Below are positions 17,444 to 27,719 of a stretch of DNA of 64,000 nucleotides, piece by piece. This stretch comes from Phycisphaerae bacterium. Its GTDB lineage: Bacteria > Planctomycetota > Phycisphaerae > Phycisphaerales > SM1A02. The stretch's first letter is position 1, and each line of letters begins with the position of its first letter. The stretch is taken from assembly GCA_016795065.1 (NCBI GenBank), contig JAEUIU010000021.1, positions 186,001-250,000 of the forward strand. Direction: 5' to 3'. The notes below the pieces were generated by a model. It was given only the letters and a program-made list of their open reading frames with translations, made no database searches and had not been told where the DNA came from. The translations under genes were made by a program, and so were the position numbers.

Positions 17444-19909
17444 CTACATCCACGCCCCGAGAAGGATCGCAAGGTCAGCGCCGTTCACGCTGCCGTCGGC
17501 GTTCAGGTCCGCGGCCCGATCGGCCGTTCCCCACGCCCCCAGCAACACGGCCAGGTCGGCACCGTCCACGTCGCCGTCGCCGTCCAGGTCGCCTAACACT
17601 TCGTCCATGCCGCTGGTCCACATGACCGCTTCCCAGCGGGCCGTGGTGGTGTTGTAGGCCGAACCGACCACGACCATCGAACCATCCGCGAGGACCTCAA
17701 GATCCGCCAGCGAACTGGCGGTGAAGTTCCCCGGCAGGAATTCGTGCAGGTCGACGGCGCTGGCGGCGGTGCCGTTCCAGAGCGTCGCCCGTTCGATGCC
17801 GCCGATGGTCGCGAATCCGCCCTGCACGCCAGCCATGCAGGCGGCCAGTCCGCTTCGCGTGGCGCCGGCCGGATGAAGGGAGAGATGGCTGACGGCGGTT
17901 CCGTACCACACCGCGGCCTTCGAATCGTTGTACCAGCCCGTCGTGCCGACTTGCTGTCCCTCATCCGCATCGCTGATGGCACTTGCGGCGAACCCCGCCG
18001 GATGCAGGTCCATCCAAGCGCTCGTGCTTCCGTTGGGAAAGCGTGCTGCGTGGTTGGTCGGCCCTGGATAGGGCGTCTGGATCGAGCCAAAGTAGTCGCC
18101 CCCATCCACGCCGCCCACGAAGCTCGCGGAGGTGTTTGGGGCAGAGAGGGCAGTGCCCCAGAAGTTCGGGGCGGTCCAGACCGCGCCAAAGGAGCCTGGG
18201 AGCCCCTCCTCCGGAGTCTGGGACCCGCCGATGACGCCATCGTGCACCACGCTCGCGGACCCGACGTCGTTGCCGCTGATCTGAAGTTGGTCATGGACCA
18301 TCGACAGCGGCGTGTCGATCCCGGTCCAACGGCAGGCCTGCCAGTAGTAGCAGGTGTACCACTGGCCGCTCACGTAGCACTGGAACGGCCACCACCACGA
18401 ACCAACGGCGGTGTCGCCCTCCATGTCAAGGACCGCGCCGCCCACACTCCCTCCGGGCGTGATGTTGAGCGCCGAACCCGCGGTCCCTTCCCAGAGAACC
18501 GGCTGCTGGAGGTTGTTGTAGCTGGCAACATCCATGATGCCGTACCCGCCCTGTCGACCGTTGGAGACGCACGTCGCGCCGGACGCCTCGGCCCAAGCGG
18601 GGTGCAGGTTCGTCACGGTCCAATGCGCGGGAATCGGCGGCGGCACCCGAAGTGAAAGGGCGATGACGGGACTCAAGGACGATCCGCACCCGTTGGTCGC
18701 GTCCAAACGGTAGCTCCCGACGTCGGAAGGGCCGAAACTCACGATGGTGAGCGTCGGTGTGGCCGAGCCGCTCACGGTGCTGCCACTGCCGGTCGGGCCG
18801 TCTTCGAGCGGAACGCCGTCGCGATTCCACTGGAACGTCATCGGTGTGCCGCCGCCGACGCTCGCGCTGATCGAGATCGTCTGTCCAAGCCACGGCTGCG
18901 CCGATGGCGATTGAGTGAGAAACGTCGGGCAGGTCGGCGCGTAGAGCTTCTCGGCGCTCGAGAGTTCCGTACCGCCAGTGCTCGTGCCGCCGGCGATGAC
19001 GATGTGGTCGTCACTGGCAAGCATCGCAGCCGCATCGCGGCGCGGAACCGACATCGCCGGCGCAGCGGACCAAGTGTTGTCGATCAGGTTGAGGACATAC
19101 GCCGAACTCAGGACCGTGCCGCCCGGAATCGCTCCGCTCTCACCGCCCAGGACGTAGATGCGCTGGTCGTTCCCGAGGACCGCGGCGGCGTTGGTCAGCG
19201 CCACCGGCATGTCCGGCACGAGCGTGTTGTTCCAGGTGCCCAGCGCTACGTCGAAGCGCCAGACGTCGGCGCTGCGGGCCGTGCCGTTGGCGTTGTAGCC
19301 ACCGAAGACCAGGATGTGTCCGGCGCCGTCGGAACAGGCACACGCGTCAGCAAGCGCCACGGGAACGCTTGCCACCTGTTGCCAGGCGTCGGTCGTTGCG
19401 TTGTAACGCTCGACGAATCCCGTGTTGGCCCCCAGCGGTCCGGCTCCGCCCCCGATGGAGTAGAGCCGCCCCTGGGCATCGCGGGCCACTGCAAAGTGCA
19501 GGTGTGGCGCCAGGTCATGACGATCGGCGATCGAACCCTGGGCCCCCTGGTTCGGGTCATAGACCTTGCCCGAGGCAGCATCGCCATTGTCGGAGTTGAT
19601 GCCTCCAAAGACGACGATCCGGTTCAGCCCGTCGAGTCCCCCGCCGAGGCCCAGGACGGGTCCCTCGCCATCGATTGGTTCGGCGGTCGTCCACAGACCT
19701 TCAGAGAAGCGGAAGACGGAGGCGTCCTCATCGCCCCGGTTCACCCACGGCGGCCCGCCGATGACATACAGGGTTCCGGCCACCTGAACGCCTACCGCAT
19801 GGTGCTTGGCACCTGGCATCGAGGGCAGCGCCGTCCACCCTTCCGCGTACATCGGGGTAGCGAGCCCCATGACGAAGCTGGCTGCCGCAATACCTCTGGT
19901 TCCGCGCAT
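17444..19909 (-). CDS. Exported kelch-repeat/Ig-like protein with C-terminal dockerin-like pair
   Basis: The ATG at 19909 has AGGAG upstream and gives a signal peptide (AAASFVMGLATPMYA). Residues 25-335 hold about six kelch-type repeats (e.g. LYVIGGPP, ILVFGGYN, IYVLGGES, IVIAGGTS), predicting a beta-propeller. An Ig-like domain follows (about 340-430: SPSAQPWLGQTISISASVGGG, VGSYRLDATNGCG). A strand-rich region with repeated NLHPA / DLHPAG motifs comes next. The C-terminus has two dockerin-like repeats (GDLDGDGDVDGADLAVLLGAWG, DLNADGSVNGADLAILLGAW) that probably bind calcium. It is the last gene of the apparent sigma/CHAT operon, 94 bp after the subtilase gene. Function is unknown; an extracellular binding protein is likely. 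Confidence 0.8.
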   Translation of the reverse strand: MRGTRGIAAASFVMGLATPMYAEGWTALPSMPGAKHHAVGVQVAGTLYVIGGPPWVNRGDEDASVFRFSEGLWTTAEPIDGEGPVLGLGGGLDGLNRIVVFGGINSDNGDAASGKVYDPNQGAQGSIADRHDLAPHLHFAVARDAQGRLYSIGGGAGPLGANTGFVERYNATTDAWQQVASVPVALADACACSDGAGHILVFGGYNANGTARSADVWRFDVALGTWNNTLVPDMPVALTNAAAVLGNDQRIYVLGGESGAIPGGTVLSSAYVLNLIDNTWSAAPAMSVPRRDAAAMLASDDHIVIAGGTSTGGTELSSAEKLYAPTCPTFLTQSPSAQPWLGQTISISASVGGGTPMTFQWNRDGVPLEDGPTGSGSTVSGSATPTLTIVSFGPSDVGSYRLDATNGCGSSLSPVIALSLRVPPPIPAHWTVTNLHPAWAEASGATCVSNGRQGGYGIMDVASYNNLQQPVLWEGTAGSALNITPGGSVGGAVLDMEGDTAVGSWWWPFQCYVSGQWYTCYYWQACRWTGIDTPLSMVHDQLQISGNDVGSASVVHDGVIGGSQTPEEGLPGSFGAVWTAPNFWGTALSAPNTSASFVGGVDGGDYFGSIQTPYPGPTNHAARFPNGSTSAWMDLHPAGFAASAISDADEGQQVGTTGWYNDSKAAVWYGTAVSHLSLHPAGATRSGLAACMAGVQGGFATIGGIERATLWNGTAASAVDLHEFLPGNFTASSLADLEVLADGSMVVVGSAYNTTTARWEAVMWTSGMDEVLGDLDGDGDVDGADLAVLLGAWGTADRAADLNADGSVNGADLAILLGAWM

Positions 19910-20003
19910 CGGTGACTCCTGGGGCACCCCGTGGTGCCGACCATTCAGGTACCGCGCGCGACCCAGTGAATACGGGAAACTCACCAATTCGACGCTGGTC
20001 GCA

Positions 20004-21425
20004 TCAACCGGTCCAGCTACCAATCAGGATGCTCAGGTCGATGGCGTTGGTCGTGCCATCCCCATTCAGGTCGGCCACCGGCGTCCCCCATGCGCCAAGG
20101 AGAACCGAGAGATCGTCCATGTCAATCCGCCGGTCATGGTCGAAATCGCCCGGCATCGGGATCGCATCGACCGCACCTGCTGCGTCGACTCGTCCGGCAC
20201 CGAGGGCTGCTCCTGCCTTCGGGTTCTTCTTGCTGATCGGAATGGCCGTCTCCTCGACGGTGATATGGGCGACATCGCCATTGCATTGATCTTTGCTCAT
20301 GACCAAGGCTGCCGTCCCGCTGATGATCGCGGCCGCGGCACTGGTGCCATCGGCGATGACGTATCCGCCGCCTGGAAATGCGCTCACGATGCCGACGCCC
20401 GGAGCGCAAAGCGAGACATACGGCCCCGAGTTGGAGAATGGCGCCTTCACGTCATATGCATCGGTTGCCGCCACGGCACAAACCGGCCCCATCTTGGCGG
20501 GGAAGGTGCCGTTGCTCTCTTGGCCGCCGTTGCCTGCCGAAACAACCACCATGACGTCGTCACTGACGATCGCATCGAGGATCGGCTCCAGCACGCCGAT
20601 GTCTTCGCCATTGCTGAAGCTCAGGTTGATGATGTGGGCACCACGTTGGTGGGCCTCGACCAAGGCGCCGGCAATGGCGAAGGCCGTGCCGCGACCGTCG
20701 GTATCAATCGCCCGCAACGGGAGAATCGAGGCCGCGGGGGCGATCTTGGTGATCAGTCCCGCAAGATAGGTTCCGTGTCCGGCGAGTTCGTCGATCGCGC
20801 CGTCGCCGTCGTCGTCCTCACCGTTACCCAGGTCGTCAAAGCCCATGCCGTCGTTGATGAAGTCGACACCCGGCAGGATGGTCGTGTTGGCGAAGATCGG
20901 ATGGCTTGCGCTCAGTCCCGAGTCAATGATGGCAATGACGATGCCCTCGCCGAGCGTCTCGGTCTGGGCGTCGGTCAATCGGATTGTCGGCCAGAGGTAC
21001 TGACCATCGAACTGCGACTGGCTCGACGCGAAGAAGAAGCTCTGGGTCTGGCCCTCGACGCTTTCGCCGGTCTCGTTGTATTCGGCCTCTTCGACGCCAG
21101 GCAAAGCCATCAGCGTCAAGACCAATTGCTTCTCGCAGATCGGATCGGGGGCGCTCAGAAGATAGAGGTCTTCCTCGGGAAAGGCGAATGCGACTTCGAC
21201 TCCCGGAAAGAGCGGAGTCACGATGGCCATCACCTCGTCGATCGAGGCGTTGTCCATCAACTCCAGCACCACCTGGTCAGGAACGGCATCGCCGGGCAAG
21301 CAAGGGTTGCCGCTTCCGCCGCCACCGTTGTCCGCAATAGCCCTGCTCGACACCAGTCCTGTCGCAACCTGGATCGTGAGAATCGAGAGGAGAGGGAGGC
21401 TGGCGAGGCGATGGGATATCTTCAT
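20004..21425 (-). CDS. Exported subtilisin-like serine protease (S8) with dockerin-like tail
   Basis: From the ATG at 21425 the 473-aa product has a signal peptide (LPLLSILTIQVATGLVSSRAIA), a propeptide-like region to about residue 145, and an S8 catalytic domain with the complete triad: Asp168 (AIIDSG), His217 (GHGTYLAG) and Ser362 (DGTSAAAA). An acidic insert (GNGEDDDGDGAIDE) between Asp and His could bind calcium. The C-terminus carries two dockerin-like repeats (DFDHDRRIDMDDLSVLLGAWG, DLNGDGTTNAIDLSILIGSW). It starts 42 bp after the stop of the TPR-CHAT gene. An alternative ATG at 21467 would add 14 residues. The substrate is unknown. Confidence 0.88.
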   Translation of the reverse strand: MKISHRLASLPLLSILTIQVATGLVSSRAIADNGGGGSGNPCLPGDAVPDQVVLELMDNASIDEVMAIVTPLFPGVEVAFAFPEEDLYLLSAPDPICEKQLVLTLMALPGVEEAEYNETGESVEGQTQSFFFASSQSQFDGQYLWPTIRLTDAQTETLGEGIVIAIIDSGLSASHPIFANTTILPGVDFINDGMGFDDLGNGEDDDGDGAIDELAGHGTYLAGLITKIAPAASILPLRAIDTDGRGTAFAIAGALVEAHQRGAHIINLSFSNGEDIGVLEPILDAIVSDDVMVVVSAGNGGQESNGTFPAKMGPVCAVAATDAYDVKAPFSNSGPYVSLCAPGVGIVSAFPGGGYVIADGTSAAAAIISGTAALVMSKDQCNGDVAHITVEETAIPISKKNPKAGAALGAGRVDAAGAVDAIPMPGDFDHDRRIDMDDLSVLLGAWGTPVADLNGDGTTNAIDLSILIGSWTG

Positions 21426-21467
21426 ATTCGGTTCCAGTTCGTTTGTCAGTCCCCTTCGTTCCGTCAC

Positions 21468-24374
21468 TCAGGCGTCGACCCTGCCATAAGCGCTAAATGC
21501 ACCCCACTCGACCAGCCGAGGGCGCTCGCGCCTCGTTTCCATCATCGCGTCGCGCAGGGCGCTGCCGCACGAGGCGTCGGTGCCCCCCAATCGTTCCGGG
21601 GTTCCCAAACGCTGGTGAAACGACAACATCAGATCCAGCGTCGCTTCATCGTGCGCGAGCCAGGCGCTCAAGACAAGCCCAGACGCGCCAGCTGCAAAGA
21701 ATCCTCGCTGTAGGCCGCTCAATTCGTCGCCACCTTCGACTGCAACCCGTCCGGTATCACAGCCGCTGACAACGACGATCGTTCTGGGAATGTGCCAGCG
21801 GAAGAGGTCCGTCACGGTGACCCAGCCATCGCCGAGGCGAATTCCCGACCGCAGCGGGCTTTCAGCGACGAAACGTCCGTGACTCGCGCAGTGCAGGATA
21901 GCCGCATGCTGGCTCGCCTCCCTCACCCGTTGGCAGGTCGCTTCCTCTCCGAGAAGGAGTCGCTCCGTTCCCACAAGGCCCGCGATGGCCTTCGCCTCGG
22001 TGGCGATGGACGGCGCGGCAGCATCGGCCACACCCACCACCACGCGACCACCGGTGGCGCGGCCCCGGCGAGTGTGAGTCGCAAGGGCCAACTCCAGCCC
22101 AATGCTTGGAACCGACACCACCGGCCGCGACGCGATCAGGGCATCTCCTCCTATCGGCAGAAGCCCAAGCGGCACGGCATGCAGTGGTCCTGCGGGCACA
22201 ACCTGCACCGCGTGCGCCGATGTAAGCAAATCCGCGAAAGGCGCGACCACCAGATCGGCGATCGCTCCGAGTGCGGCAAGCAAGTCCTGCTCAATCCGCT
22301 TCGCCCGCGCACCAGCGCTCATGAGCGAGCGATGCACCTGGAATCGGAATCGCTCTACGCGCTCGGCAATCTCCACTGCCTCACCGAGATCCGCACCCCG
22401 GATCGTCCCCCCCACCGTCACGATGGCGACCAACCGCGAGCCAGCGACGCAGGTGACCAGATGGGCCGTCGGCGAGGCGATGACGCGTTCGATCTCCTCG
22501 TGGCTTGGCGTTGAGGCGACGGAGCCGCGCAACCGCTCTCGCGCCCCTAAACGCGACTCCACCAGTCGCTGCCTTGACTCGATCGACAAGACGGCCTGGC
22601 GCCACTCCTCGTTCTTTGCCACCTCAGGCTGTCGATCGAGGCGGCTGAAAAGGACGTTGGCCTCATGCCGAATGGTGGCCGCCTCGCGGAGAAGGTCCCC
22701 TGATTCGGCCCCGCCCTCGGAATCGCCTTCGATGTTGACGTCGATGGGGACAGCGCCGGCGATCGCGTCAAGGAGCCCTCGACTTCGCACGCCTTCCGAC
22801 ACCCGGAGCGCCTCGCGCAAGGAGTTCGGATCGCCTCGTCGTACCAACGCGAGCAGCAATTCACTTGCGGCAGAGGTGTTCTCGGCAACGAAAGCACTTC
22901 GCAGCCGCGACGCCTGAAGCGTGCCGCGAACCCGTTCGAGCGTGTCGACGGAGGACCTCAAGGCGCTCATGGCCGCTTCCTCGTCACCGTCGGAGCGAGC
23001 ACACCGCGCCAACTCATGAAGAAGATCCGCTTCGAGCGGTCGTAGGAGGTGACTTCGTGCCACTTCGAGCGACTCACCGATCAGGGCCCTTGCGGAGCTG
23101 ACCTCGCCAAGCTCCCGACGTGCGGTCGCGAGCCGAGCTCGGGCGACGGCCTGCTCCGTCGGTCGCGACACGAGGAGAGGAATGGCCTTCGACAATTCGG
23201 ATTGGGCGCGCAACGCATCGCCCGTTGCCAGGGCAAGTTCGCCTTGCACCGTGTGAAGCACACCGTCGTGAATTGGGCCGACCGCGGCGCCGGGCTGGTC
23301 TTTGGTCAAGTCAAGCACTTCGAGCACGCGGGCGGCTTCGTCGAAGCGCGCCAGGCGTCCGAGGGCACGGGCGAGGCCAAGGCGGGCCCGAAAGGCCTCC
23401 AGCCGCAGGCCACAACGTTCCAGTTCAACGAGCGCCCCGTGGTACTCCGCGACGGCCTCACCGATGAGGCCCGTGCGGGCGAAGGCATCGGCCTCCTCGG
23501 CCTGCAGTCGGGCGGCGTCACCGCGAGCATCGATCGACAGGTATCGGCGGCGCACCCGCTCGTAGTGCTCCAGTGCTTCGCTGAGTCGGCCCTGCCGGCT
23601 GAGGAGGTCAGCGAGATTCCCTTCGACGATCGCAGCGGCGTGGGTGACGTTGGCGGCCTCGAGCGCCGCGAGGGAAGTTCGAAACGCCTGTTCCGCCTCG
23701 ACGAAGCGATCCAGATCCAGGAGGGCCTCGGCCAGGTTGCTGGTGAGTTGGGCTCGCGCCACCGGGTCAGCTCCCCACGTGGCAAGAGCGGCCCTGAAAC
23801 GCTCGATGGCCCGTTCGGGGCGCTGACGCATCCGTTCCAACACGCCGAGGTTGGCGTGCCCGCGGGCAGCAAGCTCGCTGGCACCCATCGATTCCAGTGA
23901 GACAATGGCGGCCTCCCCAGAAGCTGCGGCGTCGTCGAGACGCCCAAGCCGAGCGAGCGCGTGCACGCGAGCCAGACCGATGCGAGCCAAGAGAATGCGA
24001 GAACGACGCTGATTTTCCGACTCGCGATCGTCAAAGCGCTCGCCAAGCGCGTCTGCCTCGGCAAAGGTCGCCAAGGCCGTCTCGAAGGCATTCCCGTAAG
24101 ACTGCGAGATGCCCGAAGCGAGCCGACTCGCGAGTCGGCCGGCGTGGTCTCCCACCGCATCGCTCAAGGCTACCAAGCGGAGGGCGGATCGCGTCGCGTG
24201 AGCGACGTCGCGCATCGCCCCGCGATGAAGGGTCTCGGCGGCTGACTCCAAAGCAAGCGAGAGAGATCCGAGGTCAGCCCCACACCACCGCGTGGCGCAT
24301 GCGAGAACGTCCTCCTCGCCTGCGAGCGAGGAGAGTATCTCGTCGGGGGTGGGAGTCGTTTGCGCGGTCGTCAT
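21468..24374 (-). CDS. TPR-repeat protein with C-terminal CHAT protease domain
   Basis: The 968-aa protein has no signal peptide and should be cytoplasmic. Residues about 1-560 are Ala/Leu/Glu/Arg-rich helical repeats with TPR spacing (e.g. ALEHYERVRRRYLSIDARGDAARL, ALLDLDRFVEAEQAFRTSLAAL), predicting some ten TPR units. The C-terminal third is a CHAT domain of the caspase-like clan: His832 (ILHCASHGRF) and Cys872 (VVVSGCDTGR) form the expected dyad 40 residues apart, followed by GGDELSGLQRGFFAAGASGLV. CHAT proteases cleave protein partners after a sensor domain is engaged. Its neighbours are an unknown 231-aa protein and an ECF sigma upstream, and a subtilase downstream. The natural target may be one of the upstream partners. 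Confidence 0.92.
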   Translation of the reverse strand: MTTAQTTPTPDEILSSLAGEEDVLACATRWCGADLGSLSLALESAAETLHRGAMRDVAHATRSALRLVALSDAVGDHAGRLASRLASGISQSYGNAFETALATFAEADALGERFDDRESENQRRSRILLARIGLARVHALARLGRLDDAAASGEAAIVSLESMGASELAARGHANLGVLERMRQRPERAIERFRAALATWGADPVARAQLTSNLAEALLDLDRFVEAEQAFRTSLAALEAANVTHAAAIVEGNLADLLSRQGRLSEALEHYERVRRRYLSIDARGDAARLQAEEADAFARTGLIGEAVAEYHGALVELERCGLRLEAFRARLGLARALGRLARFDEAARVLEVLDLTKDQPGAAVGPIHDGVLHTVQGELALATGDALRAQSELSKAIPLLVSRPTEQAVARARLATARRELGEVSSARALIGESLEVARSHLLRPLEADLLHELARCARSDGDEEAAMSALRSSVDTLERVRGTLQASRLRSAFVAENTSAASELLLALVRRGDPNSLREALRVSEGVRSRGLLDAIAGAVPIDVNIEGDSEGGAESGDLLREAATIRHEANVLFSRLDRQPEVAKNEEWRQAVLSIESRQRLVESRLGARERLRGSVASTPSHEEIERVIASPTAHLVTCVAGSRLVAIVTVGGTIRGADLGEAVEIAERVERFRFQVHRSLMSAGARAKRIEQDLLAALGAIADLVVAPFADLLTSAHAVQVVPAGPLHAVPLGLLPIGGDALIASRPVVSVPSIGLELALATHTRRGRATGGRVVVGVADAAAPSIATEAKAIAGLVGTERLLLGEEATCQRVREASQHAAILHCASHGRFVAESPLRSGIRLGDGWVTVTDLFRWHIPRTIVVVSGCDTGRVAVEGGDELSGLQRGFFAAGASGLVLSAWLAHDEATLDLMLSFHQRLGTPERLGGTDASCGSALRDAMMETRRERPRLVEWGAFSAYGRVDA

Positions 24375-24402
24375 GCGGGCGGTAACACCCGATCGTCAGA
24401 AC

Positions 24403-25098
24403 TCAGGTCCGAAGGACAAGACCTCGCACCACCAGGGCGGCCTCGCCGGCCACCAACTCGATGGCGAGGGTCGCCTCACGGCAATCAGCCGTGATGGTGA
24501 AGGTGCCGTCGTCCGCGATCGCCTCGCTTGCCACGACCTCTCCGGTGGAAGCGTCGATCAGGTGGGCAACGGCTGCCTCGGCTTCCCCGTCGCACGTGAC
24601 TTGCCCGCGAAGACGAACGCCGGTCGAGAGTTGCTCGACCTGCAGGTCAAGCCATGCCTCGTTCGCGTCAGACCGATGCCCATCTTCCGTGGTCAAACCC
24701 CGGTAGGTTTGAATCGGGGCCGCAGCGCCGCGGAATCCCGCAAGGCTGGGGACCATGCCGTCCGCCCCGCCCGCAACGCCTGGCTGCACCAAGTCCATCG
24801 CAACCTGTCGAGCGGCGTCCAGCCAACGACGGACCAAGGCCCGCAGGTCGACCCGATCCGCCAGCAATCGCTCGGCTCGGGCTCGCATTGCATTGGACGG
24901 CCGCTCCATGGGCGCCTCGCGGAGAAGGACGATCAACTCTCGAAGGGCGCCCACAGTGGACGCGTCTGGTGTGACCGACCCAGTCGGCTCGCCGAACGCG
25001 GCCCGCACGGCGACGTCGAAGGGCCGCTCGGCCGCGCCCGACGTGTCCCCACAGGAGGGGTTGGACGGCTCGTCGGGATGACTTGATTCGGGGTGCAT
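24403..25098 (-). CDS. 231-aa protein of unknown function between sigma factor and CHAT protease
   Basis: There is no signal peptide or membrane segment. Residues 1-45 are polar and probably disordered. Residues 48-105 are predicted helical (STVGALRELIVLLREAP, RARAERLLADRVDLRALVRRWL). Residues 145-231 are strand-rich with alternating hydrophobic residues (WLDLQVEQL, VRLRGQVT, GTFTITADC, LVVRGLVLRT), suggesting a beta-sandwich. No zinc-binding anti-sigma motif is present. It lies 172 bp after the ECF sigma gene and 28 bp before the TPR-CHAT gene. Position makes it a candidate sigma inhibitor or CHAT substrate, as Csx30 is in type III-E CRISPR loci; no sequence similarity to Csx30 is claimed. 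Confidence 0.75.
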   Translation of the reverse strand: MHPESSHPDEPSNPSCGDTSGAAERPFDVAVRAAFGEPTGSVTPDASTVGALRELIVLLREAPMERPSNAMRARAERLLADRVDLRALVRRWLDAARQVAMDLVQPGVAGGADGMVPSLAGFRGAAAPIQTYRGLTTEDGHRSDANEAWLDLQVEQLSTGVRLRGQVTCDGEAEAAVAHLIDASTGEVVASEAIADDGTFTITADCREATLAIELVAGEAALVVRGLVLRT

Positions 25099-25270
25099 AG
25101 GTCAACCGTGGGGTAACAGTCGAGGAGGAGGAACGGGCTGCGGCAATTGCCGCACGCCGTTGGTAAGGTCGCGGCAAGGCTTCCCCTGATACGGAAAGGT
25201 CTCATTTCGCATGTGCAAACGGCGGACGGTGCGGCATGGGGTGGTTTTGCGGCAACCCATACCTCGTCGG

Positions 25271-25981
25271 CTAGACATTGGAAGTACATGGACCACCCGA
25301 CTCGGTGGCGGAACCGGTCCCTCCGCAATTGGATCCCAGATCGGCCCGAAGCGACGGGGGCAGCAGTTGGGACAGCCGCTCCAGACAGCGGGCACGCTTC
25401 GGTCCGATACTCCCAATGGGCATGCCAAGCGACTTCGAGAGTTCGGCATAGGAGGACTGGCCCTCGCGAGCGATGGCCATCAGTAGGTCCCGACACGCCG
25501 GATCGAGTCGATCAAGCGCGTCCGCGACCTGACGACCTCGCTCGGCGCGTTCGACGAAATCCGTTTCCGGCAGGTCGACCAACGCACGCTGCGGAGCGTC
25601 GAGCAGCCCCTCCGTCGAGCCGGCCCGAGATCGGGCTCGAGCGGCCGCCCGCAAGGCAATCCGTCGGGCTGTGGTGATGAGCCACTGCGGAAGGGCTTGC
25701 TCGTGCTGAAGCGACGAGAGTCGCCGCACGAGAACGACCCACACCTCCTGGAAGGTCTCTTCGACCAGCTCTGGTGAGACTCCCAGTCGTCGCGGAACCG
25801 AATACACGAGTCGCTCATAGCGCTGAATCAGTCGAGACCATGCCGCCTGGTCACCTTGGCGACAGAGGCGAATGAGTTCCCCGTCTGTGGGCTCGCCTGT
25901 CGCCGCTCCAGTCGACAACTCCCGCCCCTTGGACGGGGAGTTGGGAGGAACGGCTTTCGAGGCAGCATCGGGCTGCGACAT
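25271..25981 (-). CDS. ECF-type RNA polymerase sigma factor (first gene of the CHAT operon)
   Basis: The 236-aa product has a polar N-terminal extension (about 30 residues), region 2 (DGELIRLCRQGDQAAWSRLIQRYERLVYSVPRRLG, EETFQEVWVVLVRRL) and region 4 (ALDRLDPACRDLLMAIAREGQSSYAELSKSLGMPIGSIGPKRARCLERL). The C-terminus is short and Gly/Ser-rich. It heads a minus-strand run of five genes. No zinc-type anti-sigma gene is adjacent, so control by the 231-aa protein downstream is the natural suspicion. A TACGCT hexamer lies 9 bases before the ATG and there is no Shine-Dalgarno. Confidence 0.92.
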   Translation of the reverse strand: MSQPDAASKAVPPNSPSKGRELSTGAATGEPTDGELIRLCRQGDQAAWSRLIQRYERLVYSVPRRLGVSPELVEETFQEVWVVLVRRLSSLQHEQALPQWLITTARRIALRAAARARSRAGSTEGLLDAPQRALVDLPETDFVERAERGRQVADALDRLDPACRDLLMAIAREGQSSYAELSKSLGMPIGSIGPKRARCLERLSQLLPPSLRADLGSNCGGTGSATESGGPCTSNV

Positions 25982-25990
25982 GGGGTTCGT

Positions 25991-25996
25991 AGCGTA
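25991..25996 (-). promoter_or_regulatory. -10 element of the sigma/CHAT operon, near-leaderless
   Basis: On the minus strand TACGCT ends 9 bases before the ATG at 25981, so the leader would be 0-3 bases. Confidence 0.45.
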
Positions 25997-26040: not shown

Positions 26041-27642
26041 TCAGACAGGCATCAGCGGAGGCAGTTCCTTCGCCCTCCACGCCATCGGAAGTTCGACGCT
26101 GAACGTCGCACCCTTACCGGGCTTGGAGACAACGGCGACGGTCGCCCCCAAGATCTCGGCCAACTCCCGGCAGATCGCCAATCCGAGCCCCGTACCCGAG
26201 TGCTGGCGGGTGTGGCTCGCGTCGACCTGGCGGAACTTCTCGAAGATCGTGTCCTGCATGTCTTCGGGAATGCCCGGCCCCTCGTCGATCACGCCAATCC
26301 GAAGGCCCGGCGTCCCGTCACCGCGAACGCTACGGCCGGCGAAGACCGTCACCGTGCTTCCCTCGGGCGAGAACTTGATCGCGTTGGAGAGGAAGTTGTA
26401 GAGGATCTGTTGGACCTTGCCGGCATCCGTGTCCACCGTCGGGAGTTCGGGCTCGACCCGGACCAGGAGCGAGATTCGCCTGGCTTCCGATTGGGGCCGC
26501 ATCACCGTCATGAGGCCCTCAATCAAGTCACTGACGCTGGTCGGGGCAATGGTCAGCTCGACACGACCGGCCTCGATCTTGGCCATCTGCAGCAGCTCGT
26601 TGATCATGTCCAGGAGCGAACGACCGCTTCGGAGGATGTTGGCGATGTAGCGGAGACGCTTCGGATCGGCCGCGGTGTCGGACTTGGCGATCTCGTCTAA
26701 CAGTTCGGCGAAGCCGATGATCGAATTCAGCGGCGTGCGAAGCTCGTGGCTCACGTTGGCGAGGAACTCACTCTTGAGCCGGTTCGATTCGTAGAGGCCG
26801 ATGTTGGCTTGGGCGAGCTCACTCACCTTCAGGTCTAACGTTTCGTTCATAGCCCGCAGCCGCTGCTGGCCCTTCTCGATCTCGTCGAGCATCGCGTTGA
26901 AGGTCTCTGAGAGCCGCTCGAAATCATCGCCGGTGCGGATGGTGGAGCGAATGGCCAAATCGCCGCGCTCAACCTTCTCGGCCACCTCGGTCAGTCGGCA
27001 CACCGGCCGCAACACCAAGCGCGAGAGGATCACGCTGAAGATGAGGACCGCCAAGCCACTGGCGATGGCCCCGCTGATGATGAGGGCAAGCCGGTTCTCC
27101 TTCACCTGAGCCTCGGCGAAGGGGCTGGCCCGGTCGATGACCAGGATGGCACGCAGGGTCTTCTGGTCCGCCGCGGGACGCGAGTGCCCCAGAGCGAAGC
27201 TCAGGAACGCCTGGTCGGGGATTCGCTGCCATTCGCGTTCGCGGAGAGCCCGGAAGTAGCGATAGAGCGGATCGCCATCGCGCTGCACCACCTCGAAGCG
27301 GTCGACCGTATCGGGCTGGCTTTCGAAGGTCTCCATCGCCGAAAGCAGGAGCTTGTCCGGTTCGATCTCGGGGACCACGCTCTCGGCAAGCACCACCTTC
27401 ATCGGAATGGTGATGCCCTCGGAGCGGCCGAGAGAGAATCCGTTCTCCAGCCAGGTCTCGGCGAGCTGCCGCGAGACCTCAAGCTGGCTCTGGTCGACCA
27501 AGGTGCTGGTGCGCATCCACGGCACACTCAGCGCACCGGCGACCAGAGCGACCACCGCGCCGCCGAAGAGGAGGCGACTCTTGTTCGCGAGTGAGATTCG
27601 GGTTGTCCGCCGCGAGAGGCGCGGAGGGAACTCGCCAGCCAT
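26041..27642 (-). CDS. Membrane sensor histidine kinase
   Basis: The ATG at 27642 follows TACACT by 7 bases and gives 533 aa. There are two membrane segments (about residues 22-43 and 180-203) bounding a periplasmic sensor domain of about 135 residues. A HAMP domain follows (LVLRPVCRLTEVAEKVERGD), then a coiled segment, then the H-box with the phosphorylated His (FLANVSHELRTPLNSIIGF). The ATPase domain has the N box (NFLSNAIKFSPEG), G1 (VIDEGPGIP), F (IFEKFRQVD) and G2 (GTGLGLAICREL). It would autophosphorylate and pass phosphate to a response regulator. None is adjacent, so it is an orphan here. The signal is unknown. Confidence 0.93.
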   Translation of the reverse strand: MAGEFPPRLSRRTTRISLANKSRLLFGGAVVALVAGALSVPWMRTSTLVDQSQLEVSRQLAETWLENGFSLGRSEGITIPMKVVLAESVVPEIEPDKLLLSAMETFESQPDTVDRFEVVQRDGDPLYRYFRALREREWQRIPDQAFLSFALGHSRPAADQKTLRAILVIDRASPFAEAQVKENRLALIISGAIASGLAVLIFSVILSRLVLRPVCRLTEVAEKVERGDLAIRSTIRTGDDFERLSETFNAMLDEIEKGQQRLRAMNETLDLKVSELAQANIGLYESNRLKSEFLANVSHELRTPLNSIIGFAELLDEIAKSDTAADPKRLRYIANILRSGRSLLDMINELLQMAKIEAGRVELTIAPTSVSDLIEGLMTVMRPQSEARRISLLVRVEPELPTVDTDAGKVQQILYNFLSNAIKFSPEGSTVTVFAGRSVRGDGTPGLRIGVIDEGPGIPEDMQDTIFEKFRQVDASHTRQHSGTGLGLAICRELAEILGATVAVVSKPGKGATFSVELPMAWRAKELPPLMPV

Positions 27643-27649
27643 GATTTGA

Positions 27650-27655
27650 AGTGTA
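27650..27655 (-). promoter_or_regulatory. -10 element for a probable leaderless mRNA
   Basis: On the minus strand TACACT ends 7 bases before the ATG of the histidine kinase. Confidence 0.5.
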
Positions 27656-27719
27656 CGCGGAAGCGAAAGGCTCCAGCCGAGCGAAAGCGGCTGGACCGAC
27701 ACCCACCGGCCGTCGGCGA

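Follow-up and report, generated by a model that had tools for sequence, protein, structure and literature searches.

In type III-E CRISPR systems, the TPR-CHAT protease Csx29 cleaves Csx30, the N-terminal domain of which binds a sigma factor (PMC10028731); for its interaction with the protease and for its cleavage, Csx30 depends mainly on its C-terminal part (PMC11106740). CHAT-domain proteins also recur, together with carboxypeptidase- and subtilase-domain proteins, in the gene context of the sigma factor group ECF54, a context that prompted the proposal of proteolytic control in which no anti-sigma factor takes part, according to the summary of Casas-Pastor et al. (2021) in PMC8999054; the model member listed there is actinobacterial (Geodermatophilus). 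Here, a locus with features of both is described from a 64,000-nucleotide stretch (the window) of the genome of a Phycisphaerae bacterium (contig JAEUIU010000021.1), in which an ECF-type sigma factor, a two-domain middle protein of 231 amino acids, a TPR-CHAT protease and an S8 subtilase are encoded one after another on the minus strand (Table 1). The gene order, the domain make-up and the conservation of this unit were established computationally; the CHAT protease may cut the middle protein and thereby free the sigma factor.

The initial annotation of the region had described a minus-strand run of sigma factor, 231-residue protein and TPR-CHAT protease genes separated by 172 and 28 bp, respectively, and the open reading frames and profile searches agree with it. 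The sigma factor scores 77.8 bits against TIGR02937 (sigma70-ECF; cut-off, 42.9 bits) and 37.8 bits against Pfam Sigma70_r2, a combination that assigns it to the ECF type, with region 4 scoring under its Pfam cut-off. The protease matches Pfam CHAT (PF12770) with 115 bits over residues 701–964, TPR repeats are matched as well, and the His-Cys dyad, reported earlier as intact, is kept in nearly all aligned relatives (H832 in 58 of 59, C872 in 57 of 58), which identifies the protein as a CHAT protease. The solved relatives of the CHAT profile are craspase TPR-CHAT/Csx29 proteins, separases and one other CHAT protein; a search of the Protein Data Bank (PDB) with the CHAT domain of the window alone returned nothing relevant, and a profile was needed. 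The subtilase (Pfam Peptidase_S8, 112 bits; Dockerin_1 weak) has an open frame that opens one base past the CHAT stop codon, the likelier start being the ATG at 21425, with a signal-like sequence, whereas no signal sequence is visible in the CHAT protein. Many other open frames in this genome end in dockerin-like repeats as well. The triad belongs to a conserved four-gene unit composed of sigma factor, middle protein, TPR-CHAT protease and S8 subtilase; the fourth gene had been overlooked, as had a second copy of the triad elsewhere in the same genome.

Table 1. Coordinates of the four-gene unit and its predicted elements within the 64,000-nucleotide window.
Feature	Position	Strand	Basis or comment
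ECF-type sigma factor, 236 aa	25271..25981	-	TIGR02937, Sigma70_r2; orthologues 5' of the middle gene
GTATC word in the sigma-to-middle gap	25188..25192	-	Candidate promoter (-10-like) or other strand-specific signal
Two-domain middle protein, 231 aa: helical domain of reduced anti-sigma type, linker and Ig-like beta sandwich	24403..25098	-	
Helical part, residues 26-104, reduced anti-sigma domain	24787..25023	-	AF2 model and relative L068
Arg123 in the linker; possible site of cleavage or docking	24730..24732	-	Family alignment
Ig-like / CarboxypepD_reg-like beta sandwich, residues 129-228	24415..24714	-	AF2 model, VIA
TPR-CHAT protease, 968 aa	21468..24374	-	Pfam CHAT and TPR repeats, conserved dyad
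Catalytic His832	21879..21881	-	Alignment of relatives
Catalytic Cys872	21759..21761	-	Alignment of relatives
S8 subtilase, exported, open frame of 487 aa; dockerin-like repeats at the C terminus	20004..21467	-	Peptidase_S8

The CHAT search covered 294 genomes of the phylum and found relatives in 28 of them, the genome of the window included, and a scan of the genome collection yielded 25 further loci, all in records titled Planctomycetota or subgroups thereof. An ECF sigma gene directly upstream, with a protein of about 190–235 amino acids encoded between it and CHAT, was present in 24 of the 24 loci not cut by a contig end. Since the order is kept in all of these loci, which come from other genomes, the conserved neighbourhood far exceeds chance, and the triad conservation on which the earlier reading hinged is borne out. 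An S8 subtilase with a hydrophobic, signal-like N terminus lies 3' of CHAT in 23 of the 25 loci of the genome collection. Of the two CHAT genes in the window's genome, the second (locus L001) likewise stands in a triad of sigma factor, 222-residue protein and CHAT protein; the sigma factors of the two copies are 41% and the CHAT proteins 32% identical, and the two middle proteins give no significant BLAST match to each other. Another genome of the same genus carries two copies as well, each with all four genes. L001 has no adjacent subtilase, and a convergent dockerin-type protein (L001:9833-11653) is found there instead, whereas L109, the counterpart of L001 in the same-genus genome, does have a subtilase. 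Direct searches with the 231-residue protein against its paralogue and 198 genomes gave almost no matches, because the family diverges fast, and profiles were needed to follow it. Outside the phylum, five plasmid-borne CHAT relatives were considered, one of them from S. chartreusis: the two annotated ones (Azospirillum and Streptomyces sp.) have unrelated gene contexts, and a profile scan of two more, from Nonomuraea and Paraburkholderia, revealed no sigma, middle-protein or S8 match.

The AlphaFold2 (AF2) model of the middle protein, built on an alignment of 25 family members, has four helices (residues 26–104) joined by a linker of low confidence to a beta sandwich (residues 129–228). The sandwich is predicted with a per-residue confidence (pLDDT) of 90–97 from residue 151 on, bar one block at 85, and a VIA comparison, which covered this part of the model only, matched it to Ig-like domains with Z up to 10.1. 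Pfam CarboxypepD_reg is weakly matched in 5 of the 25 family members, and Foldseek with the whole model returned nothing at an E-value of 0.001 or better. The helical domain is, at the level of the family and as judged from profiles and predicted folds, an anti-sigma domain. The N-terminal ~90 positions of the family profile match many other proteins (E-values, 1e-7 to 1e-10); those matched in this part only are encoded beside an ECF sigma gene in all nine cases that could be checked, and most of the seven scanned have zf-HC2, RseA_N or FecR matches. Relatives from other planctomycetes with an H..C..C pattern (the Zn type) belong to the same family as the window type (hhalign, 99.6%). When the AF2 model of the domain from one relative, L068, was searched against the PDB with Foldseek, 13 of the 14 hits were anti-sigma chains solved with an ECF sigma factor (RskA, ChrR, RslA, RsiW and RseA). 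These E-values are weak (3–9), the domain being small, and the weight of the comparison lies in the specificity of the list; by VIA, the same domain superposes on RskA, RsiW, RseA and ChrR with a root-mean-square deviation of 1.1–1.8 Å over 45–48 residues. The isolated domain of the window's own protein scores no higher than shuffled controls. Its link to anti-sigma factors runs through the full-length family: against a family profile from which it and the closest relatives, L066 and L067, had been removed, the window's protein reaches 58.9 bits, in a match that begins at residue 46.

The pairing of Ig-like domain and CHAT is modular. In a further group of planctomycetes (L042, L043, L060 and L065), the sigma and anti-sigma parts are replaced, and CHAT is preceded by a histidine-kinase-like gene and by a gene for an Ig-only protein of 130–156 amino acids. 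Its homology lies with the C-terminal half of Zn-type middle proteins, at 93.6% in hhalign, as against only 50% for the window-type alignment. CHAT thus keeps the Ig-like domain even where sigma and anti-sigma are missing, and sequence comparison suggests that contact with the protease is made by this domain. Tandem S8 genes, two to three or more, directly follow CHAT in L049, L045 and L040, which have no adjacent sigma gene.

The linker holds R123, the sole invariant residue of the family (53 of 53 proteins, near-identical pairs included, so that not all are independent). It is mostly set in G-[F/L/Y]-R-[G/S/A] or A-L-R-[S/G], and the blocks of the model around it have pLDDT values below 60. 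An invariant arginine in a predicted low-confidence linker suggests a linear motif, either a cleavage site or a docking point. Cleavage at R123 is a guess, because the residue by which separase reads a P1 arginine (D2151; K670 in a craspase TPR-CHAT, PMC9729208) is not kept at the aligned position. D909, invariant in 58 of 58 proteins, was considered as the separase-like arginine-pocket aspartate and was rejected on the alignment with the craspase TPR-CHAT, in which the pocket residue lies four positions further on.

A word in the sigma-to-middle gap is also shared. Of 26 such regions, drawn from the window, L001 and L066-L090, 20 contain GTATC, where about two sites are expected from the locus-wide rate; the word was spotted by eye in the same regions that were later used for counting. 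It lies mostly 40–140 bp 5' of the start of the middle gene, and its reverse complement is found in none of the 26 regions. Upstream of sigma it is at background level (3 of 22 in 300 bp), and the four histidine-kinase loci show no excess over background. The simplest guess is that GTATC marks a promoter read by this sigma factor. A search for a promoter motif upstream of sigma gave nothing above chance, and Rfam gave one sub-threshold match only, on the other strand.

The initial annotation had also proposed a Cas-free counterpart of the craspase signalling arm (Csx29, Csx30 and CASP-sigma/RpoE), in which CHAT acts on the middle protein. It had noted no visible cas gene. Cas1 has no match in the whole genome, and RAMP (PF03787) has none in this 95%-complete assembly, although control genomes gave matches. 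Membership in type III-E CRISPR, considered as a candidate, was rejected on these grounds, as neither the RAMP domains of a gRAMP (Cas7-11) effector nor cas1 gave a match. The likeness lies in the layout: both systems combine a TPR-CHAT protease with an ECF-type sigma factor and a third protein, the N-terminal domain of which binds sigma in craspase and probably does so here, and the C-terminal domain of which faces the protease there and presumably here as well. They differ in that the present unit has no RAMP or Cas1 gene, no detected sequence homology to Csx30 and an additional exported subtilase; a profile of 25 middle proteins, a search by sequence profile only, found no Csx30 chain in the PDB at E-values up to 5. 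The analogy supports a logic shared with craspase, and the annotation stands in this part, helped by the Csx29 proteins among the solved relatives of CHAT. The operon may be called a counterpart in logic only: given that Cas1 and RAMP matches and a sequence link to Csx30 are missing, and that CHAT is widespread, no claim is made of common descent for the arm as a whole, nor of type III-E CRISPR as ancestor or descendant.

To ECF54, as summarised in PMC8999054, the locus is similar by gene context, as CHAT, subtilase and carboxypeptidase-domain genes are all present, the carboxypeptidase-regulatory match being weak in single members. It differs in that a masked anti-sigma domain is fused here to the carboxypeptidase-regulatory-like (Ig-like) domain, so that, at the family level, the context seems to contain an anti-sigma factor, in contrast to that summary. 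With RskA, RseA, ChrR, RsiW and RslA, the middle protein shares an N-terminal anti-sigma fold and a gene position beside an ECF sigma gene, but an Ig-like domain replaces the usual C-terminal sensor or membrane parts, and the protein is encoded together with a cytosolic caspase-like protease. Proteolytic control with neighbours of the same kinds is thus already in print for ECF54 in the account cited, whereas the anti-sigma domain on the 'carboxypeptidase-like' partner, the modular Ig/CHAT pair, the invariant linker arginine and the GTATC word in the gap are new here.

Since the middle-protein family has an N-terminal anti-sigma domain, the natural reading of the gene order is that CHAT acts on a sigma-binding protein. 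In the mechanism that would follow, the ECF sigma factor is bound by the N-terminal domain of the middle protein, as family homology and fold suggest, and the Ig-like domain is offered to the TPR-CHAT protein, as their persistent pairing suggests. A signal read by the TPR region would activate CHAT, which would cleave the middle protein, the invariant arginine of the linker being a possible site, and the freed sigma factor would then transcribe the middle-protein, CHAT and subtilase genes, possibly from a promoter at GTATC; the output would include the exported subtilase, which carries a signal sequence. We consider the odds of such a cytosolic, protease-gated sigma switch to be about even. 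Several observations weigh against it. The anti-sigma domain of the window copy is incomplete, with four helices against five in the canonical L068, and this is the domain that did not outscore shuffled sequences. The D2151/K670 position is variable (L913 in the window; mostly Ala, Thr or Arg in relatives), so that arginine-specific cutting is not predicted by that residue, and craspase orthologues cut at non-conserved sites (PMC11106740), so that a conserved arginine need not be a cleavage site. No clear -35 partner was found with GTATC. Finally, the subtilase is kept near CHAT also in loci without an adjacent sigma gene, and release of sigma may therefore not be the core function of the module.

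These points leave room for a soluble anti-sigma factor that CHAT does not cut, in which binding of TPR-CHAT to the Ig-like domain alters sigma release by itself, or CHAT cuts another protein. In that case, the invariant arginine may serve as a docking residue, and the Ig-only protein and CHAT do stay paired even without the anti-sigma domain; the catalytic dyad kept in nearly all relatives points to proteolysis, however, and the craspase precedent likewise counts against a CHAT that does not cut. We consider this alternative unlikely. Less likely again is a module of two proteases, CHAT and the exported subtilase, devoted to envelope or extracellular proteolysis, for which the sigma/anti-sigma pair or the kinase would be interchangeable expression controls, with CHAT and the Ig-like protein acting elsewhere, e.g., in making exported proteins. 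The subtilase beside CHAT in 23 of 25 sigma-type loci and in many without an adjacent sigma, with up to three S8 genes in a row, is in line with it, as is a histidine kinase in the place of sigma, but the second copy in the window's own genome lacks an adjacent S8 gene, and a subtilase with a signal sequence and a CHAT protein without a visible one are expected to work in separate compartments. A role in phage defence or cell death, comparable to that of CHAT-gasdermin pairs or craspase, is very improbable: CHAT proteases are known in defence (PMC9729208) and the subtilase matches a PADLOC subtilase model (73 bits), but the CHAT match in PADLOC is marginal (BovA, 14 bits), the sigma factor and the middle protein have none, the genome has neither a Cas1 nor a RAMP gene, two copies are kept in both genomes of the genus, and the neighbour is an exported dockerin-type protease.

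The protease-gated sigma switch can be extended to a broader proposal, which is put forward with considerable doubt: a widespread CRISPR-free device in which a caspase/separase-like TPR-CHAT protease would cut a soluble anti-sigma factor at the invariant linker arginine and release the ECF sigma factor, with the CHAT and Ig-like pair re-used under histidine kinases, and with the sigma arm of craspase as one instance of a larger CHAT-controlled transcription module. If so, regulation of ECF sigma factors by a cytosolic caspase-like protease would be a general bacterial device and no peculiarity of CRISPR, and the view, as summarised for ECF54 in PMC8999054, that such sigma factors act without an anti-sigma factor would need correcting, at least in Planctomycetota. 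Taken together, the earlier interpretation of the locus is partly supported.

The unit is flanked by two further genes on the same strand. A HAMP-type sensor histidine kinase (26041-27702) lies directly 5' of the sigma gene, and only three matches to it, with 27–37% identity, were found among the fetched loci of other genomes. Just 3' of the subtilase, a Kelch/Ig/dockerin protein (17444-20023) is encoded, perhaps as the fifth gene of the operon, and in L072, L076 and L056, the sigma-CHAT operon has kelch relatives nearby.

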